Assembly: GCF_004364975.1 (NCBI RefSeq)
Contig: NZ_SOBW01000007.1
Span: 372,001-436,000, forward strand
Length of the DNA stretch: 64,000 nucleotides
Direction of reading: 5' to 3'
From: Gelidibacter sediminis
Lineage (GTDB): Bacteria; Bacteroidota; Bacteroidia; Flavobacteriales; Flavobacteriaceae
Part shown: positions 12,771 through 27,467 of the stretch, piece by piece
How the letters are laid out: every line of letters begins with the position of its first letter
How positions within the stretch are numbered: the first letter of the stretch is position 1
Position numbers and translations under genes: made by a program
The notes under the pieces: generated by a model
The model's database searches: none
Seen by the model: the letters and a program-made list of their open reading frames with translations, nothing else
What the model was told of the DNA's origin: nothing

Positions 12771-12878
12771 CGAGTGATTCCGATTTATCGGAATAGTATC
12801 GAGAACCGAGTGATTCCGATTTATCGGAATAGTATCGAGAACCGAGTGATTCCGATTAATAGGAATCGTTGCTAGAAC
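12771..12878. repeat. Three 36-base tandem repeats, each with a hairpin
   Basis: Units lie at 12771-12806, 12807-12842 and 12843-12878. The first two are identical; the third is diverged. Each begins CGAGTGATTCCGAT and carries the perfect inverted repeat ATTCCGAT/ATCGGAAT around TT, then AGTATCGAGAAC. There are no spacers between units, so this is not a CRISPR. The flanks CGAGTG and AGTATCGAGAA recur at 58421-58466 and 58697-58743 with a different hairpin inside. The remainder of the 346-base gene-free stretch 12757-13102 shows nothing else apart from the AT-rich upstream region of the next gene. Confidence 0.85.
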
Positions 12879-13102: not shown

Positions 13103-13438
13103 ATGCAAAAAACATATTACGATCCCGCAGACCTTAAAAAATTTGGAAAAATATCCGAATGGAATGAAGAACTTGGCAGCAAATTTTTTGATTATTATGC
13201 TAAGGTTTTTGAAGAAGGCAAACTTTCTGCCCGTGAGAAATCATTAATTGCTCTAGCAGTGGCACACACTGAGCAATGTCCATACTGTATTGATGCCTAC
13301 ACACAAGATGGTTTACAACGTGGCATTACCAAAGAGGAAATGATGGAAGCGCTCCACGTAGGTGCTGCAATAAAAGGTGGCGCAACGCTGGTGCATGGGG
13401 TGCAAATGATGAACAAAGTGAATAAATTAGAAATGTGA
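13103..13438 (+). CDS. AhpD/carboxymuconolactone-decarboxylase-like peroxidase of the arsenosugar cluster
   Basis: 111 residues. A single AhpD-like domain carries the redox pair C59-P-Y-C62, preceded by His55 and Glu57 (the AHTEQCPYC motif) and followed by His85, which forms the usual proton-relay set of alkylhydroperoxidase D. This small version is characteristically encoded beside arsS, and its family carries the name arsenosugar biosynthesis-associated peroxidase-like protein. Here it lies 346 bases upstream of arsS on the same strand, separated by repeats. Its biochemical role in the pathway is unproven; disulfide chemistry or thiol reduction of arsenic intermediates is an inference. Confidence 0.88.
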   Translation: MQKTYYDPADLKKFGKISEWNEELGSKFFDYYAKVFEEGKLSAREKSLIALAVAHTEQCPYCIDAYTQDGLQRGITKEEMMEALHVGAAIKGGATLVHGVQMMNKVNKLEM

Positions 13439-13473
13439 GCAGAGAACCACTCTCGATTTTTCATCGGGAGTGT

Positions 13474-13700
13474 GTGAATCGCTCATCCCGATGAAAATCG
13501 GGATCTCTAAATTGAAATAAAAGCAAAGATTTTTTTAAGAGGTACCCCCACTTATGAAATCGACGTGAATCGCTCATCCCGATGCACATCGGAATCTCTT
13601 AATCGAAATAAAAGTAAAGTGCCTATTTAAGAGATACCACTTCTGAAATCTCCCTGAATCATTAATCCCCATGCAAATCAGGATTTTTCAGAATTAAAAG
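13474..13700. repeat. Diverging tandem repeats of about 90 bases upstream of arsS
   Basis: Units begin near 13474 (GTGAATCGCTCATCCCGATG), 13565 (same words) and 13654 (degraded), with spacings of 91 and 89 bases. Units one and two contain the stem CCCGAT/ATCGGG around a short loop (13487-13502 in the first copy), with one mismatch in copy two, then an AATTGAAATAAAAGCAAAG-like stretch and a (T)TTAAGAGGTACC box. A related imperfect hairpin lies at 13450-13470 just after the peroxidase gene. The repeats occupy most of the 346-base gap 13439-13784. They could act as transcript-processing or attenuation elements; no protein is encoded. Confidence 0.75.
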
Positions 13701-13784
13701 AATACAGCCATCAACTTAGAGATGGTCACAAAAAGAATAAAGTAAAAGCCTAACATGCTTAAACTTTAAATATGAAATCTATAC

Positions 13785-14837
13785 ATGATCAAGTCCTTAA
13801 AAAAACGCGAAAGCGAATTAGCCAATAGCAATAGACAAGTCGAAATATTATCAAATGGTATTTTTAAGAACGGAGAGCTACCCACGTTTAAAAATAAAAT
13901 TTCTGAAACAGGCCAATTTCCATTAAAAGCCAAGAAGCTCGAAATCTTACAAATCAACCTGGGTTATATGTGTAACCAAGTGTGCGAACATTGTCATGTA
14001 GATGCTGGGCCAGACAGAAAGGAAATCATGATCCGAGAGACGATGTTGCAATGTTTGGAGGTAATTAAAAACACTGGGGCCCATACCTTAGATTTAACCG
14101 GGGGTGCCCCAGAAATGAATCCTGATTTCAGATGGTTTGTGGACCAAGCGTCTAAAGCTGGTATTAAAGATTTTATCGTGCGTTCTAACTTGACTATTAT
14201 TAGGGCCAACAAAAAGTATTACGATCTTACTGAATTTTTTAAAGCCCATAACGTACATGTTATTTCTTCCATGCCCCATTGGACTAAGGGCAAAACTGAT
14301 AAGCAACGTGGTGATGGGGTTTTTGACAAATCGATTCGCGCTTTACAAGACCTGAATGCTATAGGTTATGGCATGCCGAACAGCGATTTACGATTGGATT
14401 TGGTTTATAATCCATCAGGCGCCTTCTTGCCAGGTAATCAGAATAGCATGGAAAAAGATTTTAAAAAGGCCCTAAAACAGGACTTTGACATTCATTTTCA
14501 CAATCTTTTTGCGATTACAAATTTGCCTATTGCCCGGTTTTTGGATTATTTGATTGCTTCGGAAAACTATGAAGATTACATGTATGCTTTGGTAGAAGCC
14601 TACAATCCGAATGCCGTTAAAAATGTGATGTGTACTAATACACTATCCATATCTTGGGATGGTTATTTATACGATTGTGATTTTAACCAGATGCTAAACC
14701 TTCCCGTCAATAGTAAGGTGAAGCATATTTCTGACTATAATGAAGAGCTTTTAGAAGGACGTACCATCATGATCTCCCAACATTGTTACGGCTGTACCGC
14801 AGGCGCAGGAAGTAGCTGCCAAGGGAGCGTCATCTAG
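13785..14837 (+). CDS. arsS: Arsenosugar biosynthesis radical SAM protein ArsS
   Basis: 350 residues. The radical SAM cluster motif is C63-xxx-C67-xx-C70 within GYMCNQVCEHCHVDAGPDRK, followed by the SAM-binding DLTGGAPEMNP segment. The C terminus carries the ArsS-specific Cys-rich tail QHCYGCTAGAGSSCQG (Cys 334, 337 and 345), probably holding an auxiliary cluster. Some relatives encode selenocysteine in this family; no UGA is read through here. Studied ArsS joins dimethylarsenite to the 5-prime-deoxyadenosyl group of SAM, giving the dimethylarsinoyl-deoxyadenosine precursor of arsenosugars. Start ATG 13785. The downstream rhodanese gene begins 38 bases later, consistent with an operon. Confidence 0.93.
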   Translation: MIKSLKKRESELANSNRQVEILSNGIFKNGELPTFKNKISETGQFPLKAKKLEILQINLGYMCNQVCEHCHVDAGPDRKEIMIRETMLQCLEVIKNTGAHTLDLTGGAPEMNPDFRWFVDQASKAGIKDFIVRSNLTIIRANKKYYDLTEFFKAHNVHVISSMPHWTKGKTDKQRGDGVFDKSIRALQDLNAIGYGMPNSDLRLDLVYNPSGAFLPGNQNSMEKDFKKALKQDFDIHFHNLFAITNLPIARFLDYLIASENYEDYMYALVEAYNPNAVKNVMCTNTLSISWDGYLYDCDFNQMLNLPVNSKVKHISDYNEELLEGRTIMISQHCYGCTAGAGSSCQGSVI

Positions 14838-14875
14838 ACCCTAATTTATTAAAAGCAAATGATCAATAAGGTGCA

Positions 14876-15388
14876 ATGCGTAAATATTTCTCTTTAATTC
14901 TAGTCATCTTTAGCTGCGCAATGCATTCTCAAAATAGTTTGGCAGAACTATTACAACAACATAATAACCACGACGTACCTTATATCTCAGTACATGAATT
15001 GGCGATGCCTAAAACAAATGCGATTATTTTTGATGCACGCGAGTATGAAGAATACCAAATAAGCCGTCTCATCAATTCAATTTTTGTGGGCTATAACACC
15101 TTTGATATTAACCAAGCCACTTTACATCTTAAAGACAAAAACCAAGCTATCGTTGTCTATTGCTCATTGGGAATCCGTTCTGAAAAAATAGCCCAACAAC
15201 TGCAAGAAGCAGGCTACACCAATGTGTACAATCTTTACGGTGGTATTTTTGAATGGAAGAATGCAGATTTTCCCATTGTTGATAGTGACGGCCATCCTAC
15301 TGACAACGTACATGCTTATTCAGAAGCCTGGAGCAAATGGCTCCTTAAAGGCACCAAAGTATACGGTCCAATTTTAGACAAAATTTAA
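14876..15388 (+). CDS. Secreted rhodanese-like sulfurtransferase domain protein
   Basis: 170 residues. A signal peptide (MRKYFSLILVIFSCAMHSQN) is followed by a single rhodanese domain with FDAREYEEYQ and the active-site loop C96-SLGIRS, then YGGIFEWKNADFPIV. The peptide SCAMHSQ could be read as a weak lipobox, but ordinary cleavage after HSQ is as likely. Rhodaneses transfer sulfane sulfur or act on thiol-bound species, and a similar domain recurs beside arsS in bacteria. In arsenic chemistry it might thiolate an arsenosugar in the periplasm, which is only an inference. It lies between arsS and the TIGR04282-type gene, all in one direction. Confidence 0.85.
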   Translation: MRKYFSLILVIFSCAMHSQNSLAELLQQHNNHDVPYISVHELAMPKTNAIIFDAREYEEYQISRLINSIFVGYNTFDINQATLHLKDKNQAIVVYCSLGIRSEKIAQQLQEAGYTNVYNLYGGIFEWKNADFPIVDSDGHPTDNVHAYSEAWSKWLLKGTKVYGPILDKI

Positions 15389-15466
15389 CCTTGGATTCGT
15401 GTAATACACCCTCTTAAAGACTAACTTTGAGTTTCGAAAAAAACGAGTTAATTATACACCTTCTGT

Positions 15467-16138
15467 ATGGGCATACTTTCTTCAAAAGATACGGCTAAGG
15501 CTAATGATATGGCTACCGACTTTCATTTTCCAAGCTCTAAAAATGCGCTCATTATTTTTACCCGGAATCCTGAATTAGGCAAGTGTAAAACGCGATTGGC
15601 AGCAAAAATTGGTAATGAAAATGCGTTGGAAGTTTATAAATTCTTACTAGAGCATACCGCTACCATTTCTAAAGAAATCAAAGCGGACAGGTATGTGTTT
15701 TATTCTGAAACTATTGAAAAAGAAGATTTGTGGAATGCTTCCTTATTCAAAAAAAAACTACAGCACGGAAATAATTTGGGTGCGCGCATGCACAACGCCT
15801 TTTCAGAATTATTAGCCATGGGCTATAACAAGGTAATGATTATTGGTAGCGATCTGTTAGACTTGAACGCTGATCTTATCCAAGAGGCCTTTTTTCAACT
15901 TGAAGCGAATGATGTGGTGATAGGACCTGCTTTAGATGGCGGGTATTATTTATTGGCAATGAAGACGCTTCACCATAAGGTATTTCAGAATAAATCTTGG
16001 GGTACGGATACCGTTCTAAAAGATACCCTTCATGATCTGCAGGCATCAAAACTTCACCTCTTGAAAGAATTGAATGATATTGATACCTTTGAAGACATGC
16101 AGCATTATCAGCAACTTAAAAAATTTTACAATATATGA
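15467..16138 (+). CDS. TIGR04282-type (DUF2064) glycosyltransferase-like protein
   Basis: 223 residues with a CofC/GT-A-like nucleotidyl-sugar fold. The sequence shows an N-terminal IIFTRNPELGKCKTRLA (nucleotide-binding loop), GARMHNAF, IIGSDLLDL (the metal-binding Asp of the DxD position), GPALDGGYYLLAM and SWGTDTVL. These mark the DUF2064 family that is named for its place in arsenosugar clusters. It probably uses a nucleotide sugar or transfers a nucleotidyl group to the arsenical sugar. The last codons overlap the phosphorylase start by four bases (ATGA), showing tight coupling. The N-terminal 18 residues are extra relative to the fold, and a start at the internal Met 15 is possible. Confidence 0.87.
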   Translation: MGILSSKDTAKANDMATDFHFPSSKNALIIFTRNPELGKCKTRLAAKIGNENALEVYKFLLEHTATISKEIKADRYVFYSETIEKEDLWNASLFKKKLQHGNNLGARMHNAFSELLAMGYNKVMIIGSDLLDLNADLIQEAFFQLEANDVVIGPALDGGYYLLAMKTLHHKVFQNKSWGTDTVLKDTLHDLQASKLHLLKELNDIDTFEDMQHYQQLKKFYNI

Positions 16139-16950
16139 TGATTAAAAATATAATCGAAACTACCAATTACTTAAAAAGTAAGGGTTTTGACAATCCTGAA
16201 ATAGGCATTATTTTGGGTACTGGGCTAGGACAATTAATCAAAGAAGTAGAAATCCTTCACGAAGTCAGCTATAACCACATTCCTAATTTCCCAACGGCCA
16301 CCGTTGAGTTCCATAAAGGCAAATTAATTTATGGAAACTTAGAAGGTAAGAAAGTAATTGTAATGCAAGGCCGTTTTCATATTTACGAAGGATATTCGCT
16401 ACAAGATGTGACCTATCCGGTACGAATCATGGAAAAATTAGGCATCCATACCTTACTAGTTTCCAATGCATCAGGCGCTATCAATCTCAATTATAAAAAA
16501 GGAGAGTTGATGTTGATTGATGACCATATTAACCTTCAAGGAAGTTCGCCACTTGCTTTTAAAGATGTAGGGCAATTGGGCGAACGTTTTGCAGATATGA
16601 GCGCACCTTACGATGCGGACATTAATTCTAAATTTGAACGTATTGCTGCTGCCCATAATATAACCCTACATAAAGGTGTTTATGCCTCAGTAGTTGGACC
16701 TCAATTGGAGACCAGAGCAGAATACCGAATGTTGAAAATAATTGGTGCTGATGCGGTAGGCATGAGTACAGTTCCAGAAATTATTGTGGCCAACCATTTA
16801 AAATTAAAAGCCGCGGCCGTGTCAGTTTTGACTGATGAATGCGACCCAAACAACCTGAAGCCCGTAGATATCTCTGAGATTATCGCAATGGCGGAAAAAG
16901 CAGAGCCAAACATGATTGTTCTGTTTAAGGAATTGATAAAAAGCTTATAA
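16135..16950 (+). CDS. Purine nucleoside phosphorylase (trimeric type) with adenine-type Asp
   Basis: 271 residues, PNP/MTAP superfamily. The phosphate-binding GTGLGQL is at 28-34, followed by the MQGRFHIYEGY segment, SNASGAINL, SVVGPQLETRAE (purine-binding Glu192) and GMSTVPE. Human PNP has Asn243 in SLITNK, which selects 6-oxopurines. The aligned segment here is SVLTDECDP with Asp234, as in MTA phosphorylase, where Asp contacts the 6-amino group. The enzyme may therefore accept adenosine-type substrates, fitting phosphorolysis of dimethylarsinoyl-deoxyadenosine made by ArsS. Overlap with the upstream glycosyltransferase gene supports a pathway role. Ordinary purine salvage remains possible. 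Confidence 0.9.
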   Translation: MMIKNIIETTNYLKSKGFDNPEIGIILGTGLGQLIKEVEILHEVSYNHIPNFPTATVEFHKGKLIYGNLEGKKVIVMQGRFHIYEGYSLQDVTYPVRIMEKLGIHTLLVSNASGAINLNYKKGELMLIDDHINLQGSSPLAFKDVGQLGERFADMSAPYDADINSKFERIAAAHNITLHKGVYASVVGPQLETRAEYRMLKIIGADAVGMSTVPEIIVANHLKLKAAAVSVLTDECDPNNLKPVDISEIIAMAEKAEPNMIVLFKELIKSL

Positions 16951-16957
16951 TTTTTTT

Positions 16958-16989
16958 AAACCTCTCAGACAAAGTCATCCGGAGGTTTT
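16958..16989 (+). terminator. Weak terminator-like hairpin after the phosphorylase gene
   Basis: AAACCTC at 16958-16964 can pair with GAGGTTT at 16982-16988, followed only by a short T-G stretch. The 17-base loop is long. It may attenuate rather than end transcription before the sterol-desaturase-like gene. Confidence 0.35.
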
Positions 16990-16995
16990 GTGACT

Positions 16996-17883
16996 ATGGA
17001 AAAATACCTCGACATTATTGTAAAATCCTATACGGGTTATTGGAATTATCTCAAATATGAGCTCATTGATATCTACCACTGGGATAACTATTTTTACGGG
17101 CTGATCATCATTTCATTAGTGGTTTGGGGTTTAGAAATTGCATTCCCGTGGCGCAAAAACCAGTCTATTTTTAGAAAAGATTTCTGGTTGGACACGTTTT
17201 ATATGTTCTTCAATTTCTTTTTATTGAATTTAATTGTCCTGATTGCACTTTCCAATACCACAGCTGAGTTTTTTAATGACATCCTCGGTTTCTTTGGATG
17301 GCACGTAGATAGCTTACAAGTTTTTGACGTAGATGAATTACCTCGTTGGTTAGGACTGCTCATCTTTTTCTTAATCACCGATTTTGTGCAGTGGAACACC
17401 CATCGCCTTTTACACCGAGTGCCTTTCCTTTGGAATTTCCATAAAGTCCACCACTCCATTAAAGAAATGGGATTTGCTGGGCATTTGCGTTACCATTGGA
17501 TGGAACCCATCCTCTACAAATCTTTACAATACATACCTATTGCGATAATTGGCGGTTTTGACGCCCAAGATGTGGCCATTGTTTACTTTTTCGCCATCAC
17601 CATCGGACATTTGAATCATGCCAATGTGGGGTGGAACTATGGGCCTTTAAAGTTCATCTTGAACAATCCGAAGATGCATATTTGGCACCATGCTAAAGAA
17701 TTGCCAACCCATTTAAAATACGGTATGAACTACGGACTGACCTTAAGCATCTGGGATTATATTTTTAAAACCGACTATATTCCTCATGATGGCAGAGACA
17801 TTGAATTGGGGTTTGAGGACGATCATAAATTTCCCAAGACTTTTATCAAACAAACCATCTATCTTATTAAAACTGACAAGTAA
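16996..17883 (+). CDS. Sterol desaturase/fatty acid hydroxylase family membrane protein
   Basis: 295 residues from ATG 16996; a GTG at 16990 is also in frame but less likely. There are four to five hydrophobic helices and the three-part di-iron histidine signature of the fatty acid hydroxylase superfamily: HRLLH, then FHKVHH with SIKEMG after it, then the later HLNHAN and MHIWHH boxes. The enzyme is expected to hydroxylate or desaturate a lipid in the inner membrane. Its placement inside the arsenosugar block suggests that the product could be a lipid, but the substrate cannot be read from sequence. The upstream hairpin and the 45-base gap leave operon membership open; the direction is the same. 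Confidence 0.85.
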   Translation: MEKYLDIIVKSYTGYWNYLKYELIDIYHWDNYFYGLIIISLVVWGLEIAFPWRKNQSIFRKDFWLDTFYMFFNFFLLNLIVLIALSNTTAEFFNDILGFFGWHVDSLQVFDVDELPRWLGLLIFFLITDFVQWNTHRLLHRVPFLWNFHKVHHSIKEMGFAGHLRYHWMEPILYKSLQYIPIAIIGGFDAQDVAIVYFFAITIGHLNHANVGWNYGPLKFILNNPKMHIWHHAKELPTHLKYGMNYGLTLSIWDYIFKTDYIPHDGRDIELGFEDDHKFPKTFIKQTIYLIKTDK

Positions 17884-17919
17884 TTTTATATAACCCAAAA
17901 GCATCTAGAACTACACCTC

Positions 17920-18720
17920 ATGAACTACGTTATCACAATTTTGTTTTCAATAATGGTAGTAGTCAATTTGAGCAGTTGCAATTTAACCACAGCAGGCATT
18001 GGAAACCAAGGGCTGACGATTAAAGAAGTGGATGGCAAATTGGTTTCGATAATGCCAAATTCCAATATTAAAGTGGATCACAACGCTTGGGATGTTTTAT
18101 TGAAAAAATATGTCAACGACAAAGGATTTGTCGATTATAAAGAATTTAAAAAGGATCACGATAAACTTAAAGCCTACCTGACCAAACTTTCGGAGACGCC
18201 ACCTAACGCAGAATGGAGCGTTCAGGAATTATTAGCCTATTACATCAACCTGTACAATGCGGCCACGGTGGATTTGATTTTGGATAATTACCCGCTTAAA
18301 AGTATCAAGGACATCAGTCGCCCTTGGGGAAAAGACTTTGTGAAGATTGGGGATAAAGTCGTCTCGCTAAACACTATTGAACATGGTATACTGCGCAAAA
18401 TGAATGAACCGAGAATTCATTTCGCCATCAATTGTGCTTCGATTTCGTGTCCTAAATTACTACGTGATGCCTTTTTGGCAGATAAAATACAGGAGCAGCT
18501 GCAAAAAGCAACAGACGAATTTATCAATAGCAATCAAAATGATATTTCAGAAAATAACCCTAAATTGTCGAAGATATTTGATTTTTATACCTCCGATTTT
18601 AAGCTAAACGGCAAAACTGATTTGATAGGATTTATTAATCAATACAGCCGCATTAAAATCAATCCGAAGGCTAAATACAGCTTTAAGGACTACGATTGGA
18701 GATTGAATGAACAAGACTAA
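17920..18720 (+). CDS. DUF547 domain lipoprotein
   Basis: 266 residues. The signal peptide ends in a lipobox (VVNLSSC, Cys about 20). A DUF547 domain fills residues 50-250, with the typical LLAYYINLYNAATVDLIL, LNTIEHGILRK, RIHFAINCASISCPKL and DWRLNE motifs. The domain has a transglutaminase/cysteine-protease-like layout with conserved His and Cys, but its activity is unknown. DUF547 genes recur beside arsS, rhodanese and GT genes in marine bacteria, so this belongs to the block. Predicted location is lipid-anchored in the periplasm or outer membrane. Confidence 0.88.
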   Translation: MNYVITILFSIMVVVNLSSCNLTTAGIGNQGLTIKEVDGKLVSIMPNSNIKVDHNAWDVLLKKYVNDKGFVDYKEFKKDHDKLKAYLTKLSETPPNAEWSVQELLAYYINLYNAATVDLILDNYPLKSIKDISRPWGKDFVKIGDKVVSLNTIEHGILRKMNEPRIHFAINCASISCPKLLRDAFLADKIQEQLQKATDEFINSNQNDISENNPKLSKIFDFYTSDFKLNGKTDLIGFINQYSRIKINPKAKYSFKDYDWRLNEQD

Positions 18721-18790
18721 TTAAAATTTTCATAGTATTTTGTGGTTAAGCTATTCTATACTATAACGAATTAAGGATGGTTTTCAACTT

Positions 18791-19543
18791 ATGAACTACA
18801 GGATTTCCATCATTATTCCCATTTTAAATGAAGCCGAAACCATAACGAGATTGCTTCAACATATTGTAGCTAATGCATCGGTCGAGTCTATTTCTGAAAT
18901 TATTTTAGTGGATGGCGGAAGCACGGATGAATCTCAGGACGTCATTCAACAGTTTATTTTAGAAGTTACTTCAAACGGCACTACAACACTTCAAAATAGT
19001 GCTGGTTCTAAAATGGACATCCGATTAATTTCATCAGAAAAAGGACGCGCCAAGCAAATGAATAGTGGAGCACAACTTGCAACAGGAGACATTCTCTACT
19101 TTTTACATGCGGATTCCTTTCCTCCGAAACACTTTGACCGCTACATTATTAACGAAGTAAAAAACGGCAATCCTGCTGGTTGTTTTAGAATGCAATTTGA
19201 TAGTACACATTGGTGGTTAAGATTGGCGAGTTGGCTTACGCAATTCAGCTGGCGCGCTTGCAGAGGTGGCGATCAGAGCCAATTTATTACCCGACACCTT
19301 TTTGATGAGATTGGTGGTTACGATGAAAACTACATCATTTATGAAGATAACATCTTGATCAATCAGCTATTTGAGAGGAAGCAATTTGTAGTGATTAATA
19401 AAAAACTCCAAACTTCAGCAAGACGGTATCGCAAACACGGCGTTTGGACATTACAATTCCATTTCTGGATGATCTATATTAAAAAATGGTTTGGTGCTGA
19501 CGCCCAAGAATTGTTGACGTATTATAAAAGACACATTTCCTAG
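18791..19543 (+). CDS. TIGR04283-type family 2 glycosyltransferase
   Basis: 250 residues, GT-A fold. The N-terminal ISIIIPILNEAETI is followed by LVDGGSTDES, RAKQMNSGAQLATGDILYFLHAD (with the metal-binding HAD position) and GGDQSQFI, a motif set specific to the mycofactocin-like/TIGR04283 subgroup. This subgroup is the second glycosyltransferase named for arsenosugar clusters, and together with the DUF2064 protein at 15467 it forms the usual pair. A short hydrophobic C-terminal stretch (FHFWMIYIKKWFG) may contact the membrane. The stop overlaps the convergent phosphoesterase gene by four bases. The sugar donor and acceptor are unknown; glycosylation of an arsenoribose is inferred. Confidence 0.9.
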   Translation: MNYRISIIIPILNEAETITRLLQHIVANASVESISEIILVDGGSTDESQDVIQQFILEVTSNGTTTLQNSAGSKMDIRLISSEKGRAKQMNSGAQLATGDILYFLHADSFPPKHFDRYIINEVKNGNPAGCFRMQFDSTHWWLRLASWLTQFSWRACRGGDQSQFITRHLFDEIGGYDENYIIYEDNILINQLFERKQFVVINKKLQTSARRYRKHGVWTLQFHFWMIYIKKWFGADAQELLTYYKRHIS

Positions 19544-20301
19544 AATTGGTTTCCGAGGATGTCATTTAAGGATTGTTGGTTCCTTCCCCTTTCATCAGGA
19601 TACAATTCCATTAACGCTTTACTTTGATAAATATCTTTTGAATGGATATCCACGGCCGATAATTTACCAAAAAATGCCGCCCCAGTATCCACATTCCAAA
19701 CATTAACAGCATTCATTGGTTCCACTGAATTAAAATTAAGAGTTGGGGTATGCCCAATATAAATTTCGTGATAGTGTTTTAGGCGTTTTGGGAAAAATGC
19801 AGAGTCTTCATCAATACTTTTGTCTACAGTAATGGCCATTTCCCACAAAGTCCGGTCATAATAAAACGTACTCTTAGAATTTTCCTGACTTACACCGTGA
19901 AGCGATGTAAATCCGGCATGAACAAATAACCGATTCTGTTCATCCAAATGATAGTGTTTCATTTGCTCAAAAAATTTAAGATGTACTTGTTTCTTCTCTT
20001 TCGACAGACCCGAATAACTTTCAATCGTCCCTTCTCCACCGTGGTCCAACCAAACTTTAGGCGCCTTGTTGTTCCGAAGCCAAGTTTCACACCACGCATC
20101 ATGATTACCTTTTATAAAGATACAGTCATTGGTCTGTGACAACTCATACAGATATTGGACGGTTTGTGCGGATTCACTCCAGCCATCAACATAATCGCCC
20201 ATAAAAATCAAGCGGTCGTCAGTATTAACTGTTGCAGTTTCCAACAATTCCACTAAGCCTTTTAATCCGCCATGAATATCCCCTATTGCTAGTGTTCTCA
20301 T
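19540..20301 (-). CDS. Metallophosphoesterase (PPP/ApaH-like)
   Basis: 253 residues, calcineurin-like phosphoesterase. Metal-binding motifs are GDIHG (7-11), GDYVDGWSE (about 36-44), GNHDAW (about 61-66), HAGF (about 128-131) and GHTP (about 191-194). It belongs to the serine/threonine protein phosphatase-like group that also includes diadenosine tetraphosphatases. Translated on the minus strand together with the GH113-like gene (stop and start adjoin at 20301). It is convergent with the TIGR04283 gene with a four-base overlap. The substrate is unknown; sugar-phosphate or nucleotide hydrolysis is plausible in this context. Confidence 0.88.
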   Translation of the reverse strand: MRTLAIGDIHGGLKGLVELLETATVNTDDRLIFMGDYVDGWSESAQTVQYLYELSQTNDCIFIKGNHDAWCETWLRNNKAPKVWLDHGGEGTIESYSGLSKEKKQVHLKFFEQMKHYHLDEQNRLFVHAGFTSLHGVSQENSKSTFYYDRTLWEMAITVDKSIDEDSAFFPKRLKHYHEIYIGHTPTLNFNSVEPMNAVNVWNVDTGAAFFGKLSAVDIHSKDIYQSKALMELYPDERGRNQQSLNDILGNQF

Positions 20302-21320
20302 TACCGGTAGTGTTTATAAGTTGTACTTATGATTGCTTCAACAGGTTTGTTTTGCGGTGTAAACTGCGTGTCTTGGTCGCCACCCACATTATTATGGTCA
20401 TGAAACCATTTCCAGATAAATCCTCCTGCAAACCAATCTTCATTCCAATTCTCATCATACAAGGCTTGCATGGCGTTGGATTGCGCTTCCATATTCATTT
20501 CATTCATTTCTCTATCAAAATTCCACGGAGCTTTGGCCGTATAATCCACACTTCGGTAACCGTATTCCGTAAACAATATGGGTTTATGATGACGTTCAGA
20601 TATGGCTTTCAACTGTTTCTTATATGGTTGCCAAGCCGCCTTGCACTCTGCAACGGTTGGGGTTTTCTTATCGCTCAAAGGAAAATAAGCATCAATACCT
20701 ATAAAATCCAGATCTGACCAAAAAGGCGTTCGGTCATACTCATTCCAATTGGCTGCATAGGTAAGCTTCCCTTTGTATATTTCCCTAATATCCTTGATTA
20801 ATTGTTTCCAAAATTGGGGTCTAGCATCAACAAAGTTTTCCAACTCTGTTCCGATGCAAAATATATCAACATTGGTATCTTCCGCAATTTTTGCATACGT
20901 CAGAATAAAATTACGATAAGTATCTTCCAACAGTCTCCAATCTTCTTCGTGCACCATCTTAATGAATCCGGTAAACTCGCCTTTACGCACCCAAATTTGA
21001 GGCTTCATCATTGTTTTTATATGATTCTTTTGAAGAGTTTCGACGTATTGTCTCACACCCTTATCAGTTTCACCAAACCACTGGCGTTCGCTATTAAAGT
21101 TTATTTCTGGATGTGACAATTCGCGGATAAATCCAAAAGGCATCACAGCAGCGTAATTAGCATTAAGCTGCAGCAATGGCGCCATATGCGTATCATCAAC
21201 CGCCACTCTTGAGGCTACAAAACTTACCCCATTGATTTTCTGAGGTTTTTCTACCATAGCACTGCAGGAAGAGAGCAAACATATTAAACTGAAATATAAA
21301 AAATGTAAAACCGATTTCAT
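20301..21320 (-). CDS. GH113-like glycoside hydrolase lipoprotein
   Basis: 339 residues. The lipoprotein signal ends LLSSC (Cys about 19). A TIM-barrel of the GH113 (beta-mannanase) or GTA-like type follows, with the acid/base candidate Glu in FCIGTELENF and the nucleophile candidate Glu in ILFTEYGYRS, and an intervening DFIGIDAYFPL strand. The C-terminal GGFIWKWFHDHNNVGGD segment fits the substrate-binding wall. It is co-transcribed with the phosphoesterase gene that follows at the same boundary. GH113 enzymes act on beta-1,4-mannans; here the position in a glycolipid-type block suggests trimming of a surface glycan, but this is inference. Confidence 0.8.
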   Translation of the reverse strand: MKSVLHFLYFSLICLLSSCSAMVEKPQKINGVSFVASRVAVDDTHMAPLLQLNANYAAVMPFGFIRELSHPEINFNSERQWFGETDKGVRQYVETLQKNHIKTMMKPQIWVRKGEFTGFIKMVHEEDWRLLEDTYRNFILTYAKIAEDTNVDIFCIGTELENFVDARPQFWKQLIKDIREIYKGKLTYAANWNEYDRTPFWSDLDFIGIDAYFPLSDKKTPTVAECKAAWQPYKKQLKAISERHHKPILFTEYGYRSVDYTAKAPWNFDREMNEMNMEAQSNAMQALYDENWNEDWFAGGFIWKWFHDHNNVGGDQDTQFTPQNKPVEAIISTTYKHYR

Positions 21321-21411
21321 TCGTGTTATTTATCCCTAAATTTAAACAAACTCAATTTAAAATATTAAGTTTTGAAAAAAACTACGACAAATCAAGCCTA
21401 AAAGTCACCAT

Positions 21412-22710
21412 ATGGAACACATCGTTATTATCGGCAATGGTATTTCTGGAGTTACAGCAGCCCGTCACATCCGAAAACTATCCGATAAGAAAATCACCAT
21501 TATTTCTGCAGAAACCGAACATTTTTTCTCTCGTACTGCCCTCATGTACATTTATATGGGCCATATGCAATATGAACATACCAAACCTTACGAAGATTCC
21601 TTTTGGAAAAAAAATCGGATAGATTTGAAATTTGGCTTGGTGACCGCCATTGATACGGAGCACAAATCACTTCAATTTGAGAATAACGAAAATCTGCAAT
21701 TCGATAAACTCATCATTGCTACTGGAAGCATCTCCAATAAATTTGGATGGAAAGGTCAAGATTTAAAGAGTGTTATTGGTTTGTATAGCAAACAAGATTT
21801 GGACCAATTGGAAGCTATTGCGCCCAACAATGAGGTTTGTCAACGCGCAGTTGTGGTTGGAGGCGGTTTGATTGGTATTGAATTGGCTGAGATGTTGCAC
21901 TCCCGTAAGATTCCAGTAACGTTTTTAGTGCGGGAAGAAAGCTTTTGGGATGTCGTTTTACCAAGTGGTGAAGCGCAAATGCTTGATAGACATATAAAAA
22001 GTCACGGCATCGATTTACGCTTAAACTCAAATCTAGGCGAAATCACTTCTGATGACCACGGACATGCCAATGGTGTCATCATTGCAGAAACAGGTGAAAC
22101 AATTTCTTGTAATTTGGTTGGATTAACCGCAGGTGTCTCTCCTAATATAACTTTGGTAAAGTCGTCAACTATTGAAACGGACCGTGGCGTGTTGGTCAAT
22201 AGATATTTAGAGACCAATGTTAAAGATGTTTATGCCATTGGCGATTGTGCGCAACAACGCGAACCAATAGGGAATCGGAAACCAATTGAGGCCGTGTGGT
22301 ATACAGGCAGAATGATGGGTGAAGCATTGGCACAAACCATCTGCGGGAATCGGATGGCCTATAATCCTGGACACTGGTTTAATTCCGCCAAGTTTTTTGA
22401 TATTGAATACCAAACTTACGGATGGGTGTTTGCCACGCCTAAAGGTGGCAATGCACATTTTCATTGGAAACATAACGATGACCAAAAATGTATTACCATT
22501 GAATATCAGGAAGCATCCAATATCTTTTTAGGCATCAATACCTTTGGAATCCGCATGCGACACGAGGTGTTTGACCGATGGCTTACAGAACAACGGACGA
22601 CTGATTATGTCATCAAAAATTTAAAAGAAGCCAACTTTGATCCTGAATTTTATAAAACTTTTGAGGATGCGATTATCAGGGCTTATAGTAATCAATTTAA
22701 TATGGCTTAA
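21412..22710 (+). CDS. NAD(P)/FAD-dependent oxidoreductase
   Basis: 432 residues of the pyridine nucleotide-disulfide oxidoreductase class (rubredoxin/NirB-like). An N-terminal FAD site reads IIGNGISGVTAARHIR, a central NAD site reads VVVGGGLIGIELAEML (about residues 145-160), and the second FAD motif is DVYAIGDCAQ (about 270-279). No redox-active CxxC pair is visible, so it is of the non-disulfide type. A C-terminal extension of about 120 residues is unusual and contains a His/Trp-rich stretch. It is divergent from the GH113-like gene and runs toward the polyferredoxin gene, from which a transposase remnant separates it. It probably supplies electrons to that membrane Fe-S protein. Confidence 0.87.
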   Translation: MEHIVIIGNGISGVTAARHIRKLSDKKITIISAETEHFFSRTALMYIYMGHMQYEHTKPYEDSFWKKNRIDLKFGLVTAIDTEHKSLQFENNENLQFDKLIIATGSISNKFGWKGQDLKSVIGLYSKQDLDQLEAIAPNNEVCQRAVVVGGGLIGIELAEMLHSRKIPVTFLVREESFWDVVLPSGEAQMLDRHIKSHGIDLRLNSNLGEITSDDHGHANGVIIAETGETISCNLVGLTAGVSPNITLVKSSTIETDRGVLVNRYLETNVKDVYAIGDCAQQREPIGNRKPIEAVWYTGRMMGEALAQTICGNRMAYNPGHWFNSAKFFDIEYQTYGWVFATPKGGNAHFHWKHNDDQKCITIEYQEASNIFLGINTFGIRMRHEVFDRWLTEQRTTDYVIKNLKEANFDPEFYKTFEDAIIRAYSNQFNMA

Positions 22711-22717
22711 CGATAGA

Positions 22718-22748
22718 GACCTCACAGGTTTTGAAAACCTGTGAGGTC
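22718..22748. repeat. REP-type palindrome, left copy
   Basis: A perfect 15-base inverted repeat around a central G. Each arm contains GACCTCACAGGTTTT. It lies just after the oxidoreductase stop and 22 bases before the transposase remnant. It matches the right copy at 23337. Confidence 0.85.
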
Positions 22749-22770
22749 TTCCAACATCTAAAAAATACGT

Positions 22771-23328
22771 ATGAATTACGAACCTCTCATAGAAGGCAAT
22801 TACTATCATATATATAATTGTGGAAACAATAAAGAGAATATTTTTATTGAAGAAAGAAATTATGCGTATTTTTTGATTTTACTAAAAAAACACGTTCTGC
22901 CTTGTTCAGATGTTTTGGCTTTCTGTCTATTGAAAAACCATTTTCATTTGCTGTTTATTTAAAGGAAAATTTTGAGTCAAAAACAATCTCGCAATGTTAC
23001 TCAAATTTCTTTAACGCGTATGCAAAAGCGATCAACAAGTCATATGATAGAACTGGGTGTTTATTTAAAGAGAGATTTTCAAGAATTAAAATAACTGATG
23101 AAACATATTTAAAATCGTTGATTGTATATATCCACACAAATCCAACACATCACCAATTTACTGATGATTTCAGAGGATAAATATTCTTCTTATAAGTCAA
23201 CTCTATCAAAGCAACCGATATTATTGAATAGAGAATTTGTGCTTAATTTATTTGAGAACAGAGAGAATTTTGAATTTATCCACAACGATAAAGGATTAAG
23301 AATTAAAGAAAGATTTCTTTTAAAATAA
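22771..23328 (+). pseudogene. Decayed REP-associated tyrosine transposase (RAYT, IS200-like)
   Basis: The first segment (from ATG 22771) reads YYHIYNCGNNKENIF and ends at the HUH motif HFHLLF. A +1/-1 shift near 22960 is needed to continue with YLKENFESKTISQ, the catalytic-Tyr segment NAYAKAINKSYDRTG, LFKERFSRIK and YIHTNPTHHQ. A second shift near 23175 restores the end KYSSYKSTLSKQPI to 23328. All landmarks of a Y1-type transposase are therefore present in order but split over three frames, so the gene is inactive. Matching palindromes flank it at 22718-22748 and 23337-23366, the classical arrangement of RAYT with its REP sequences. Confidence 0.88.
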
Positions 23329-23336
23329 CGTCATAA

Positions 23337-23366
23337 GACCTCACAGGTTTCAAAAACCTGTGAGGT
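23337..23366. repeat. REP-type palindrome, right copy
   Basis: Arms of GACCTCACAGGTTT and AAACCTGTGAGGTTT around a short CAA(A) centre, the same sequence as the left copy with small changes. It ends 18 bases before the polyferredoxin ATG, so it could also affect the leader of that transcript. Confidence 0.85.
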
Positions 23367-23383
23367 TTAAAAAAAACCGAACT

Positions 23384-24982
23384 ATGAGTACCAAAATAAA
23401 TTCAAGCATGTCTCTAGCGAAACCCGATTCGCAAACGCTTTCTAAAACCCAAAAAATTGCCGTAGCATTAGGAGTTGTGGGACTGTTTATCATGGCCTTG
23501 GCACTTTTTAATGTTGATTTCCCCAATAAAATAATATTTCTGTCCCTCTCCTTAGGACTAATTACGGCAGGCACCATTATGTTCTCGAACAATGCTTATT
23601 TAACAAAACAAGCAGGGATTAAAAATGATGGAGTTTGGTTTAAGTCCATTGCTTCACGCGGACTTTGGGGTTGGGCTTTAGGGATTGCGCTTACCCTTTT
23701 TTATGTTGTTCTTTATTTTAAGGCAGAATGGCTCGGACTTGCCGCTGACGGTGGCGTGAACGGTGGACTGGTAGCAATGTTTGATCCTTTAAGTAGATTG
23801 CTGAATGGCGGCCCCGCAAGTCAATGGTTTGTATATGGCACATTGTATACGGTAGCTATTTTAGTCTTTGGCTATAAATTTATGCTCAAATACCGCCATA
23901 ACCGTTACGAACAGTTACGCACCATTTCAGTGATGTTCTTTCAATTGGCCTTTGCCTTCTTAATTCCGGAATTTATGGCGCGGTTAAATTCAGAAACCTT
24001 TAGCCTTCCGTATTATGATTTAAAGAATATTTGGCCCCTTAATTTTTACAATTTTGACAAGTATCGTGTGGATTCTATGATTGAAGCGGGAGATATCGGT
24101 TTGGCATTTTTAATTTTCGGAATTGTTTCGATTTTTGTCATTTCTCCAATTTTGACTTATAAATACGGTAAACGGTGGTATTGTTCTTGGGTGTGTGGTT
24201 GCGGTGGACTTGCTGAAACGGCAGGAGATCCGTTTCGCCATCTGAGCGATAAAAGTCAATTTGCATGGAAAGTTGAACGTTGGGTAGTACACAGCGTGGT
24301 GGTATTTGTCACATTGATGACCACTGCGGTTATTTATTCGTATTTAGGAAATGATTCCAGTAAATATTGGCTAACAAAAGATGTGTTTCTTCTTGGCGTT
24401 GCCGGATTACTCACTGTAGTATTCGCTTGGGTGATGATTTTTAAACGTAAAGAATTGGCAAAGGATGCCCAATATGGTGCCATTGGCTATTTTGTGATTA
24501 TCATGGTGCTCATCGGGATGCATTATTTTAGCGGCACTAAAAATGTCTTTTTGGTGGATACTTATTTCCTAAAGTCATCTTACGGCTTTTTAATCGGTGC
24601 CATATTTTCGGGCGTGATTGGTGTTGGATTTTATCCCATTTTTGGGAACCGCGTTTGGTGTCGTTTTGGTTGCCCAATGGCCGCAATGTTAGGTTTCCAG
24701 CAACGTTTGTTTTCAAAATTTAGAATCACCACCAACGGTGGCCAATGTATTTCGTGTGGCAACTGTTCTACCTATTGCGAAATGGGTATTGATGTGCGTG
24801 CCTATGCTCAAAAAGGCGAAAATATTGTAAGAAGTAGTTGCGTAGGCTGTGGCATTTGTGCTGCTGTATGCCCAAGAGGGGTCTTGAAATTGGAGAATGA
24901 TTCTATGAATGGGCGCATCAACAGCAACGATATCCTATTAGGTAATGACGTGGATTTGATGGATTTGGTAAATCAAAAATAG
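23384..24982 (+). CDS. Membrane-bound 4Fe-4S protein (NosR/NapH/CcoG-like polyferredoxin)
   Basis: 532 residues from ATG 23384. A GTG at 23360 lies inside the right palindrome and is rejected. About eight to ten hydrophobic segments surround two NosR/NapH-type cysteine signatures, CSWVCGCGG (about 268) and CRFGCP (about 430). Then come two ferredoxin-like clusters, CISCGNCSTYC and CVGCGICAAVCP, near the C terminus. Such proteins pass electrons across the inner membrane from quinol or NAD(P)H-linked partners. The adjacent FAD oxidoreductase is the natural partner. Within arsS neighbourhoods this pair could reduce an arsenical or supply the fatty-acid-hydroxylase-like enzyme; that is inference. 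Confidence 0.88.
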   Translation: MSTKINSSMSLAKPDSQTLSKTQKIAVALGVVGLFIMALALFNVDFPNKIIFLSLSLGLITAGTIMFSNNAYLTKQAGIKNDGVWFKSIASRGLWGWALGIALTLFYVVLYFKAEWLGLAADGGVNGGLVAMFDPLSRLLNGGPASQWFVYGTLYTVAILVFGYKFMLKYRHNRYEQLRTISVMFFQLAFAFLIPEFMARLNSETFSLPYYDLKNIWPLNFYNFDKYRVDSMIEAGDIGLAFLIFGIVSIFVISPILTYKYGKRWYCSWVCGCGGLAETAGDPFRHLSDKSQFAWKVERWVVHSVVVFVTLMTTAVIYSYLGNDSSKYWLTKDVFLLGVAGLLTVVFAWVMIFKRKELAKDAQYGAIGYFVIIMVLIGMHYFSGTKNVFLVDTYFLKSSYGFLIGAIFSGVIGVGFYPIFGNRVWCRFGCPMAAMLGFQQRLFSKFRITTNGGQCISCGNCSTYCEMGIDVRAYAQKGENIVRSSCVGCGICAAVCPRGVLKLENDSMNGRINSNDILLGNDVDLMDLVNQK

Positions 24983-25117: not shown

Positions 25118-25810
25118 ATGTCCATTATTAAAGTAATCATTCCTGCCTACAACGAAGCAGATTCTATAGGGCTTGTCATTAAAGACATTCCAGATATAGT
25201 AGATGAAGTTATTGTGGTCAACAACAACTCTACAGACGCTACTGCCGAAGTAGCGCAACGTGCAGGTGCTACCGTATTATTAGAATCTCAAATGGGTTAT
25301 GGCTATGCGTGTCTAAAAGGCATGGCGTATATTGCAACGCTGTCTACAACACCAGATATCATCGTTTTTATGGATGGTGATTATAGCGACTATCCTGAGG
25401 AATTACATAAAATTGTACGGCCTATTTTAGAAGAAAACGTTGATTTTGTTGTCGGATCTAGAGTGCAACGTCTACAGGAAAAAGGCTCCATGACGCCCCA
25501 ACAACACTTTGGAAATTGGCTGGCCACATTTTTAATGCGGATTCTTTTTGGCGCTACATTTACGGATCTCGGTCCGTTTAGAGCTATCAAATATCAGAAG
25601 CTGCTCGATTTACACATGCAGGACAAAACATACGGTTGGACTATTGAAATGCAACTAAAGGCTCTAAAACAAGATTTAACCTATACTGAAATTCCCGTAA
25701 AATATAAAAAAAGAATTGGCGTCTCAAAAGTATCAGGAACCATAAAAGGTACTATCTTTGCGGGCGTAAAAATCCTAGGTTGGATTTTTAAATATAGTTT
25801 TAAGAAATGA
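25118..25810 (+). CDS. Family 2 glycosyltransferase, dolichyl-phosphate-mannose-synthase-like
   Basis: 230 residues, GT-A fold. The motif order is IIPAYNEADSIG, VVNNNSTD, GYGYACLKGM, then DGDYSDY (DxD site) and GPFRAIKY, with KMxGxS-type KRIGVSKVSGT near the end. This is the layout of polyprenyl-phosphate glycosyltransferases that charge undecaprenyl phosphate with a sugar. The short hydrophobic C terminus (IFAGVKILGWIFKYSF) would associate with the membrane. Four-base overlap with the next glycosyltransferase gene (ATGA at 25807). It follows the arsenosugar block after a 135-base gap. Confidence 0.88.
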   Translation: MSIIKVIIPAYNEADSIGLVIKDIPDIVDEVIVVNNNSTDATAEVAQRAGATVLLESQMGYGYACLKGMAYIATLSTTPDIIVFMDGDYSDYPEELHKIVRPILEENVDFVVGSRVQRLQEKGSMTPQQHFGNWLATFLMRILFGATFTDLGPFRAIKYQKLLDLHMQDKTYGWTIEMQLKALKQDLTYTEIPVKYKKRIGVSKVSGTIKGTIFAGVKILGWIFKYSFKK

Positions 25811-27297
25811 TTCTAGAATCCTTTATCATAGTTGTTTACACTATTGCTCTCGTACTTATTTTGTTATATGCATTAGCGCAACTCAACCTTTTAATTAATT
25901 ATTTATCTGCAAAAAAGAAGACGGACACTTCTGAAGTTTTCGATTTTTCTAACCCTGAAGAAATTCCTTTTGTCACCATTCAACTTCCTGTTTATAATGA
26001 GATGTACGTTATGGACCGTCTGTTGGAAAACATCGCTTTAATAGATTACCCAAAGGACAAATTAGAAATTCAAGTTCTTGATGATTCTACTGACGAAACT
26101 GTTGAGTCTACCTTTCAACACGTTCAAAAATTAAAAGCTTCAGGTCTCGATATTCAGCATATCCGTCGTACGGATAGAAGTGGCTTTAAAGCGGGCGCTT
26201 TAAAAGAAGGTTTAAAAATTGCTAAAGGAGAGTTTATTGCCATTTTTGACGCTGACTTCTTACCAAAACCAAATTGGCTTAAACAGACAATTCCTTATTT
26301 TAAAGACGAAGAAATTGGCGTGGTACAAACCCGTTGGGGACATATCAATAGAAATTATTCGATACTTACAAAAATTCAAGCCTTTGCTTTAGATGCGCAT
26401 TTCACCTTAGAACAAGTTGGCCGTAATAGTAAAGGGCACTTTATCAATTTTAATGGTACCGCTGGTGTGTGGCGTAAAACCTGTATCCTTGATGCTGGAA
26501 ACTGGGAAGGCGACACGCTTACTGAAGATTTAGATTTAAGTTATAGAGCACAACTTAAAAATTGGAAGTTTAAATATCTAGAAAATGTAGAAACACCTGC
26601 TGAATTGCCTGTGGTCATCAGTGCAGCCCGTTCGCAACAATTCCGCTGGAACAAAGGTGGTGCTGAGAATTTCAGAAAAATGATGTGGCGGGTATTAACT
26701 TCAAAAAACATCTCCTTTAAAACGAAGGTGCACGGCCTCTTACATCTTTTAAACAGTACCATGTTTTTAAACGTCTTCTTGGTAGCTATTTTAAGTATCC
26801 CAATGTTGTATATTAAAAACGAATATGCCCACTTGAGATTCTACTTTTATTTTATGAGTTTCTTCGTAGTAAGTACCATCATCTTTTTTGTGTGTTATTG
26901 GATGATGTATAAAGAGATTTATGGTAAGGGCTTTAAAAACTTCTTTACCTATGTTGGGTTGTTTTTTACCTTTTTCTCCATTGCGATGGGGTTCTCGCTC
27001 CATAATTCCATTGCCGTTATTGAAGGACATATTGGTAAGCGAAGTGAATTTATCAGAACACCAAAGTTTAATATCAGCACATTGAAGGACACTTGGAAAG
27101 GCAATAAGTACTTGCGTAAAAAAGTGTCGATGAACGTTATTTTTGAAGGCGCTCTAATGCTTTATTTTGGATTTGGATTATATAGCGCCTTTGTAGTAGG
27201 TGACCAGGGCGGCGACTTTGGGTTGTTTCCTTTTCACTTGATGCTTTTTGTTGGGTTTGGGTATGTGTTTTTCAAATCGTTGACATCTAAAGCATAA
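25807..27297 (+). CDS. Processive family 2 glycosyltransferase (cellulose-synthase-like)
   Basis: 496 residues. The GT2 catalytic set is complete: QLPVYNEMYV, LDDSTDE, FDADFLP (DxD), TEDLDLSYRA (catalytic base ED) and the QQFRW acceptor motif (Q/RxxRW). One N-terminal helix (about 5-30) and at least four C-terminal helices (from about residue 315) place the catalytic domain at the inner face of the membrane. No PilZ domain is present. Related flavobacterial proteins make glycolipids or short polysaccharides. Overlaps its upstream neighbour, so both are in one transcript, and a strong terminator hairpin follows. Confidence 0.9.
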   Translation: MILESFIIVVYTIALVLILLYALAQLNLLINYLSAKKKTDTSEVFDFSNPEEIPFVTIQLPVYNEMYVMDRLLENIALIDYPKDKLEIQVLDDSTDETVESTFQHVQKLKASGLDIQHIRRTDRSGFKAGALKEGLKIAKGEFIAIFDADFLPKPNWLKQTIPYFKDEEIGVVQTRWGHINRNYSILTKIQAFALDAHFTLEQVGRNSKGHFINFNGTAGVWRKTCILDAGNWEGDTLTEDLDLSYRAQLKNWKFKYLENVETPAELPVVISAARSQQFRWNKGGAENFRKMMWRVLTSKNISFKTKVHGLLHLLNSTMFLNVFLVAILSIPMLYIKNEYAHLRFYFYFMSFFVVSTIIFFVCYWMMYKEIYGKGFKNFFTYVGLFFTFFSIAMGFSLHNSIAVIEGHIGKRSEFIRTPKFNISTLKDTWKGNKYLRKKVSMNVIFEGALMLYFGFGLYSAFVVGDQGGDFGLFPFHLMLFVGFGYVFFKSLTSKA

Positions 27298-27320
27298 ATA
27301 GAAGCAGAAAGAAATTAATG

Positions 27321-27360
27321 ACCTGATAATTGTTAAGCACTAACATTTATCAGGTTTTTT
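27321..27360 (+). terminator. Rho-independent terminator after the processive GT2 gene
   Basis: ACCTGATAA and TTATCAGGT form a nine-base stem with an inner TGTTA/TAACA extension, followed by TTTTTT. It lies 24 bases behind the GT2 stop and covers the TTG at 27330 that could be mistaken for the start of the next gene. Confidence 0.8.
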
Positions 27361-27467
27361 GTTTGACAATTATTGATAAAGACGCGAAGTTATTAAAGCA
27401 AAAATCTACCTATCTTGTCAATCCTTATGAACCCAAAGTCTCCTTAGATAACCCGACAACGTGTAGC

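Follow-up and report, generated by a model that had tools for sequence, protein, structure and literature searches.

Gene content of the arsS locus

We analysed a stretch of 64,000 nucleotides (the window; positions 372,001 to 436,000 of contig NZ_SOBW01000007.1) from Gelidibacter sediminis, a marine flavobacterium with a genome of 3.56 Mb, and within it the block at 13103-24982 that surrounds the gene of the radical S-adenosylmethionine (SAM) enzyme ArsS. According to published work, ArsS attaches 5'-deoxyadenosine to dimethylated arsenic. The cluster belongs to a known type, though its methylation step is probably altered, and its genes suggest how the ArsS product may be processed further. 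All the proteins named in the original prediction, which was made from the letters and their translations, correspond to open frames located where it had placed them or nearby.

Seven genes on the forward strand, from arsS to the TIGR04283 gene (13785-19543), form a tight run in which gaps do not exceed 78 bases and two frames, those of TIGR04282 and the purine nucleoside phosphorylase (PNP), overlap by 4 bases. ArsS itself (13785-14837; TIGR04167, 437.9 bits, cut-off 300) has the expected CX3CX2C motif (CNQVCEHC at residue 63) and Cys-rich tail, and is 95% identical to the ArsS of an uncultured Gelidibacter. Aligning seven ArsS proteins, drawn from Bacteroidota, Proteobacteria and one cyanobacterium, shows eight invariant Cys, and no solved chain matched ArsS by sequence at E ≤ 0.001. 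It is followed by a rhodanese (14876-15388; NF045521, 199.2 bits, cut-off 145) with the Cys loop CSLGIR and a hydrophobic N-terminus that, by eye, resembles a signal peptide; a TIGR04282/DUF2064 protein, a probable nucleotidyltransferase with KTRL at residue 41 (15467-16138; 210.2 bits, cut-off 134); a trimeric-type PNP (16135-16950; NF006054, 336.8 bits, cut-off 218); a membrane protein of the fatty-acid-hydroxylase type (16990-17883; PF04116, 93.1 bits, cut-off 31); a DUF547 lipoprotein, its lipobox recognised by eye (17920-18720; PF04784, 97 bits, cut-off 27); and a family 2 glycosyltransferase of TIGR04283 (18791-19543; 224.3 bits, cut-off 182).

Upstream, also on the forward strand, an AhpD/CMD-type peroxidase-like protein with CPYC at residue 59 (13103-13438; TIGR04169, 191.1 bits, cut-off 120) ends 346 bases before arsS. 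The TIGR04169, TIGR04282 and TIGR04283 proteins beside ArsS thus all exceed their curated cut-offs. Short tandem and interspersed repeats flank the AhpD-like gene, at 12771-12878 and 13474-13708 (36-base and 55-base units), and separate it from arsS.

Conservation of the neighbourhood

The ArsS loci compared comprised 80 named ones (the best 80 of at least 591) and 30 from the other ArsS-bearing genomes of the order sample. Neighbours were counted at loci flanked by 8 kb on each side (62 of the 80 and 26 of the 30, given below in this order), up to about 9.6 kb from ArsS. The AhpD-like gene was found at 58/62 and 23/26 loci, TIGR04282 at 49/62 and 14/26, the rhodanese at 41/62 and 11/26, PNP at 39/62 and 14/26, the methyltransferase known as arsenosugar ArsM at 37/62 and 15/26, DUF547 at 35/62 and 11/26, TIGR04283 at 27/62 and 7/26, and the hydroxylase at 18/62 and 3/26. 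A wider sample of the phylum had ArsS in 121 of 296 genomes. Forty of these loci were hand-picked across families; three (L184, L200 and L219) gave no ArsS frame, and among the 33 with 8 kb on both sides TIGR04282 was near ArsS in 19 and TIGR04283 in 13.

Plasmids carry ArsS too: among 52 such records, 47 come from Burkholderia glumae, and we examined six of the loci, one from this species. In Acinetobacter portensis the locus holds arsS, TVP38/FAD (flavin adenine dinucleotide), DUF547, TIGR04283, TIGR04282, a methyltransferase, a phosphate transporter, a methylthioadenosine phosphorylase (MTAP) and a sterol-desaturase-type protein. In Cupriavidus it holds an ArsM-like gene (under the cut-offs), a YciW/AhpD-like gene, arsS, TIGR04283, TIGR04282, MTAP and DUF547; further genes recognised there by eye are those of a phosphate transporter, of FAD and TVP38 proteins and of a second radical SAM protein. 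In B. glumae, FAD, TIGR04282, TIGR04283 and MTAP are found some 6 kb from arsS on one side, and DUF547 on the other side. These three proteobacterial clusters resemble that of the window in bringing together ArsS, TIGR04282, TIGR04283, DUF547 and a nucleoside phosphorylase; they differ from it in that the phosphorylase is an MTAP (passing the TIGR01694 cut-off at these three of the six plasmid loci) instead of a PNP, in the addition of TVP38/FAD, and, in two of the three, in a phosphate transporter. DUF547 recurs with ArsS in both Bacteroidota and Proteobacteria, and the second radical SAM protein was seen at L181:15377-16849 and L182:13081-14478 (B. glumae by annotation, Cupriavidus by eye).

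The other three plasmid loci are simpler. That of Thiodictyon has a TIGR04283-like gene that at 162.4 bits stays below the cut-off of 182, a sterol-desaturase-type protein, arsS and TIGR04282; that of Hymenobacter has DUF547, TIGR04283, two dehydrogenase-type genes and arsS; and that of Pseudanabaena has arsM, TVP38 and arsS. The window and cyanobacterial ArsS, the latter part of the ArsM/ArsS pathway (NF038099 and TIGR04167), share the invariant Cys. Unlike this single cyanobacterial plasmid locus, where arsM, TVP38 and arsS are the only members of the set, the window adds PNP, TIGR04282, TIGR04283, the hydroxylase and DUF547, and neither its block nor its genome has the arsenosugar ArsM of the cyanobacterial pathway.

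Co-occurrence across genomes

Of 246 genomes from the order, 31 had ArsS (E ≤ 1e-60). These 31 and 49 chosen ArsS-lacking genomes (the 20 listed from the same family, 17 of them of one genus, and 29 from other families) made up an 80-genome panel. TIGR04282 exceeded its cut-off in all 31 ArsS-bearing genomes, against 5 of the 49 others. Seen from TIGR04282, the 36 genomes that have it and the 44 that do not differ in ArsS (31 against 0), in a PNP without the 5'-OH-binding His (34 against 2, genomes with PNP unread or not found being scored as without it), in the hydroxylase (33 against 0, two of the 33 matches containing one stop codon), in TIGR04283 over its cut-off (29 against 0) and in arsenosugar ArsM (22 against 0); canonical ArsM occurs in 5 of the 36 and 3 of the 44. 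PNP and the hydroxylase-like protein thus track the arsenosugar module genome-wide, which supports that part of the original prediction. The hydroxylase is present in 29 of the 31 ArsS-bearing genomes though frequently distant from ArsS, which gives it support beyond mere neighbourhood.

The nucleoside phosphorylase

The cluster PNP matches NF006054 over its whole length and misses the inosine/guanosine-specific model TIGR01700 (286.5 against 293.35 bits). Its score against the MTAP model TIGR01694 lies below the cut-off (98.1 bits, cut-off 274.85), and it may act like an MTAP although it is not one. Residues of the window protein are placed on the mammalian PNP numbering through alignments to solved homologues. 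Like trimeric PNPs it keeps the Glu201 equivalent; unlike them it has Ile246 for His257 and Asp234 for Asn243. In mammalian PNP, His257 is described as bonding the substrate 5'-OH (PMC12648331), and this contact is therefore missing here; Asn243 of PNP is described as bonding O6 (PMC9916683). The idea that this Asp singles out a dedicated enzyme was dropped, since it also occurs in ordinary flavobacterial PNPs and in some other PNPs of solved structure.

The residues were read in the 31 ArsS-bearing genomes of the panel and in 30 of the 32 ArsS-lacking ones with a PNP match at E ≤ 1e-30 (G032 and G033 were left out). All 31 ArsS-bearing genomes have a trimeric-type PNP with Ile (29) or Val (2) at the His257 site. 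Of the 30 others, 24 have the His form only (including G028, whose alignment is doubtful), five have a His-less PNP (G105, G013, G023, G024 and G014) and one (G025) has a PNP too distant to classify. In genus g2, the three ArsS-bearing genomes have a His-less PNP plus an ordinary one, and none of the 17 ArsS-lacking genomes has the His-less form, 10 of them being without any PNP match at E ≤ 1e-30. The His-less PNPs form one clade (SH-aLRT 99) in a quick tree with a long-branch warning that excluded G025 and G028. No more than 120 bases separate their genes from TIGR04282 in 31 of the 34 genomes with both; in the others the distance is 0.8, 0.9 and 3.3 kb.

The genome of G. sediminis also encodes a DeoD-type PNP over its cut-off, so that the cluster PNP is not its sole purine phosphorylase, and a uridine-phosphorylase-like protein. 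The missing 5'-OH-binding His, together with MTAP in Proteobacteria, favours phosphorolysis of the ArsS product by the cluster PNP, which we regard as fairly likely. The strongest support for this step, on the strength of three loci, is the presence in the ArsS clusters of distant bacteria of MTAP, a phosphorylase known to act on 5'-modified adenosines.

A probable nucleotidyltransferase and two further proteins

TIGR04282 proteins had been taken for glycosyltransferases, in line with the family name. Their predicted fold and KxRL loop point instead to a nucleotidyltransferase. A structure model built from 61 sequences (mean pLDDT 91.3) has as its first Foldseek match 3cgx, a member of the same family of unknown function, and ranks 2-10 are nucleotidyltransferases: FbiD/Rv2983 with and without phosphoenolpyruvate, 3-phosphoglycerate guanylyltransferase with its product, CofC, then IspD and others. 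The KTRL motif, which the Cupriavidus protein shares, lines up with the KSRL of CofC. The predicted fold and this loop are thus shared with the CofC/FbiD guanylyltransferases; on the other hand, when the folds are aligned, sequence identity is 14-20% to FbiD and CofC, and the proteins fall below the cut-off of the CofC family. On the basis of the modelled fold, TIGR04282 is probably a nucleotidyltransferase rather than a glycosyltransferase, and its proximity to guanylyl- and other nucleotidyltransferases suggests that it may activate a sugar phosphate.

The hydroxylase-like protein has the His boxes HRLLH138, HKVHH151 and HIWHH230 (HX3H, HX2HH and HX2HH) that define its superfamily; no solved chain matched it by sequence at E ≤ 1. 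The DUF547 protein gave a confident model (pLDDT 91.6) with no match in the Protein Data Bank (PDB) by Foldseek at E ≤ 0.001 (best E 1.9), and its fold may therefore be undescribed.

The methylation step

The block had been described as holding a full enzyme series. This was wrong, because the usual ArsM of the cluster is absent: the arsenosugar ArsM (NF038099) is not found in the block, which holds no arsenite methyltransferase at all, and the genome gave no match at E ≤ 1e-40. The block can therefore be classed as an ordinary arsenosugar cluster only on the assumption that another ArsM has been substituted. This gene occurs at 66 of 109 loci, beside PNP in many relatives, and PNP is directly followed by the hydroxylase in the window and at L002, L037, L051 and L133. 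On another contig the genome encodes a canonical ArsM (376.4 bits, cut-off 263) whose frame starts 7 bases after an ArsR-family gene, and it is plausible that this arsR-linked enzyme replaces the arsenosugar ArsM. Three of the nine ArsS-bearing genomes without NF038099 carry a canonical ArsM. As a usual partner of ArsS the canonical enzyme was rejected, being present in 5 of 31 ArsS-bearing and 3 of 49 ArsS-lacking genomes.

A SusC-SusD-symporter-phosphoesterase module lies beside arsS in five of the six ArsS-bearing genomes that have no recognised ArsM, compared with 4 among the 25 others, a comparison made after the pattern was noticed and in which two of the five genomes come from one genus. 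The module is possibly an uptake system for an arsenical made by other organisms. Besides SusC and SusD, its genes encode a sodium/solute symporter, a metallophosphoesterase and a second TIGR04282-like protein, which is divergent and lacks the KTRL loop. The module stands beside arsS at 9 of the 30 panel loci (L119, L123, L127, L134, L138, L142, L143, L144 and L145) and at named loci such as L003, L010 and L039.

The outer genes

The original prediction treated the whole 12 kb as one block. The run 13785-19543 fits this description; beyond it come two genes on the opposite strand, a calcineurin-like phosphoesterase (19540-20301; Metallophos PF00149, 55.2 bits, cut-off 21.5) and a lipoprotein resembling glycoside hydrolase family 113 (GH113; 20301-21320; PF22612, 155.3 bits, cut-off 27), both weakly linked, and then two on the forward strand that are linked in some relatives, an FAD-dependent pyridine nucleotide oxidoreductase (21412-22710; Pyr_redox_2 PF07992, 166.7 bits, cut-off 26.1) and a NapH-like polyferredoxin membrane protein (23384-24982; TIGR02163, 56.4 bits, under the cut-off of 213.05). 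Conservation with arsS in relatives likewise extends to the inner genes, and these four recur less often: GH113 at 16/62 and 3/26 loci, the phosphoesterase at 11/62 and 5/26, the FAD oxidoreductase at 11/62 and 4/26 and the NapH-like gene at 8/62 and 4/26. Outer genes are undercounted, because the count ends about 9.6 kb from ArsS and the NapH-like gene of the window sits past that limit. Downstream of nine TIGR04283 genes followed by at least 5.5 kb, FAD was found in 5, NapH in 5, GH113 in 4 and the phosphoesterase in 2. The genes at 19540-24982 are thus more weakly linked to the pathway, partly since the flanks are short.

Between the FAD and NapH-like genes (22717-23366) lies a broken frame (22771-23328) enclosed by two 31-base palindromes, 94% alike; by eye it resembles a transposase associated with repetitive extragenic palindromes (REP). 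Since GTG 23360 falls inside one palindrome, ATG 23384 is the likelier start of the NapH-like gene. After the block, 25118-28871 encodes another two glycosyltransferases of family 2, together with a membrane protein resembling a mannosyltransferase; relatives of the first glycosyltransferase lie near arsS at 13 of 109 loci.

Proposed pathway and alternative explanations

From the computed gene content and order, co-occurrence, PNP residues and predicted fold, we infer the steps after ArsS and the final product as follows. Arsenite would be dimethylated, perhaps by the arsR-linked canonical ArsM encoded elsewhere in the genome, and ArsS would add 5'-deoxyadenosine to the arsenic. The cluster PNP would then exchange adenine for phosphate, giving 5-deoxy-5-dimethylarsinoyl-ribose 1-phosphate, onto which TIGR04282 would load a nucleotide; the chances of this activation seem evenly poised. 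The resulting nucleoside diphosphate (NDP)-arsinoylribose would be a donor for TIGR04283, whose transfer of arsinoylribose to an acceptor has somewhat better prospects of being right. The acceptor would most likely be a glycerol head group such as that of phosphatidylglycerol, and the membrane hydroxylase would modify the lipid part; a lipid acceptor is a tentative suggestion. Arsenosugar-glycerol and arsenosugar phospholipids are described as natural products (PMC7345539). For the run 13103-19543, known here from its genes, such an arsenosugar pathway has about an even chance of being correct. A broader scheme appears rather doubtful as a whole, namely that a phosphorylase was recruited twice (the His-less PNP in flavobacteria and MTAP in Proteobacteria), that TIGR04282 makes NDP-5-deoxy-5-dimethylarsinoyl-ribose, that TIGR04283 builds membrane arsenolipids from it, and that ArsS-bearing relatives without a recognisable ArsM import the arsenical through the SusC/SusD-symporter module.

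Several observations weigh against the arsenosugar pathway. Besides the missing arsenosugar ArsM, neither PNP nor MTAP was near ArsS at any of the 33 wider-phylum loci with 8 kb on both sides, and no phosphorylase was seen within 10-12 kb at the Thiodictyon, Hymenobacter and Pseudanabaena loci. The single clade of His-less PNPs implies a single origin of the residue change, and the Fisher values for co-occurrence in the panel ignore relatedness. The CofC model TIGR03552 gives TIGR04282 proteins 36 to 53 bits (36 for that of the window) against a cut-off of 105. In 12 of the 31 ArsS-bearing genomes the unit lies away from ArsS, with TIGR04282 more than 10 kb off or on another contig, and 5 of the 36 genomes with TIGR04282 lack ArsS yet retain parts of the unit. 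These last two observations would suit a unit of TIGR04282, PNP, hydroxylase, DUF547 and TIGR04283 that makes an arsenic-free glycolipid, with ArsS and ArsM as an add-on or mere neighbours. Among ArsS-lacking genomes, G105 (L175) keeps rhodanese-TIGR04282-PNP-DUF547-TIGR04283, G086 (L239) and G091 (L240) keep rhodanese-TIGR04282-hydroxylase-DUF547-TIGR04283, then one gene, then FAD-NapH, G013 keeps TIGR04282-PNP-DUF547 and G023 keeps TIGR04282-PNP. We nevertheless hold the arsenic-free product to be unlikely: ArsS is always accompanied by TIGR04282 in the panel (31/31), arsenosugar ArsM lies inside the unit even where ArsS is elsewhere (L149, L153, L154 and L155), and MTAP takes the place of PNP in proteobacterial ArsS clusters.

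Other alternatives concern single enzymes. If TIGR04282 were a glycosyltransferase, in keeping with its NCBIfam name and with the glycosyltransferases from rank 15 of its Foldseek list, it and TIGR04283 could act serially on arsinoylribose; yet, among solved structures whose function is stated, those nearest in fold are guanylyl- and cytidylyltransferases, and the alignment of KTRL with KSRL of CofC and the weak TIGR03552 matches point the same way, making this improbable. It is about equally improbable that the PNP clears 5'-deoxyadenosine or methylthioadenosine, as housekeeping or as a side product of radical SAM chemistry, instead of acting on the arsenical. The lost 5'-OH contact and the proteobacterial MTAP would suit any 5'-modified adenosine, and the genome of G. 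sediminis gave no match to methylthioadenosine nucleosidase (MTAN). However, a His-less PNP is present in just 5 of the 41 ArsS-lacking panel genomes without MTAN, which also weakens the idea of a general MTAN substitute, and the PNP is tightly linked to TIGR04282, for which we know of no action in methylthioadenosine salvage. A role of the PNP as arsenate reductase seems very improbable: such reduction is reported for mammalian PNP in vitro with dithiols (PMC12608789), but the report concerns those conditions, and the lost 5'-OH contact and the replacement by MTAP would be left unexplained.

Implications

In marine life, arsenic commonly occurs as arsenosugars and arsenolipids. In the open-licence literature we found no enzyme assigned to the steps after ArsS, most subscription papers lying outside the search. 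The comparison with relatives gives a sharper, testable proposal for these steps and, if the proposal is true, the function name that NCBI gives to the TIGR04282 family would be corrected.

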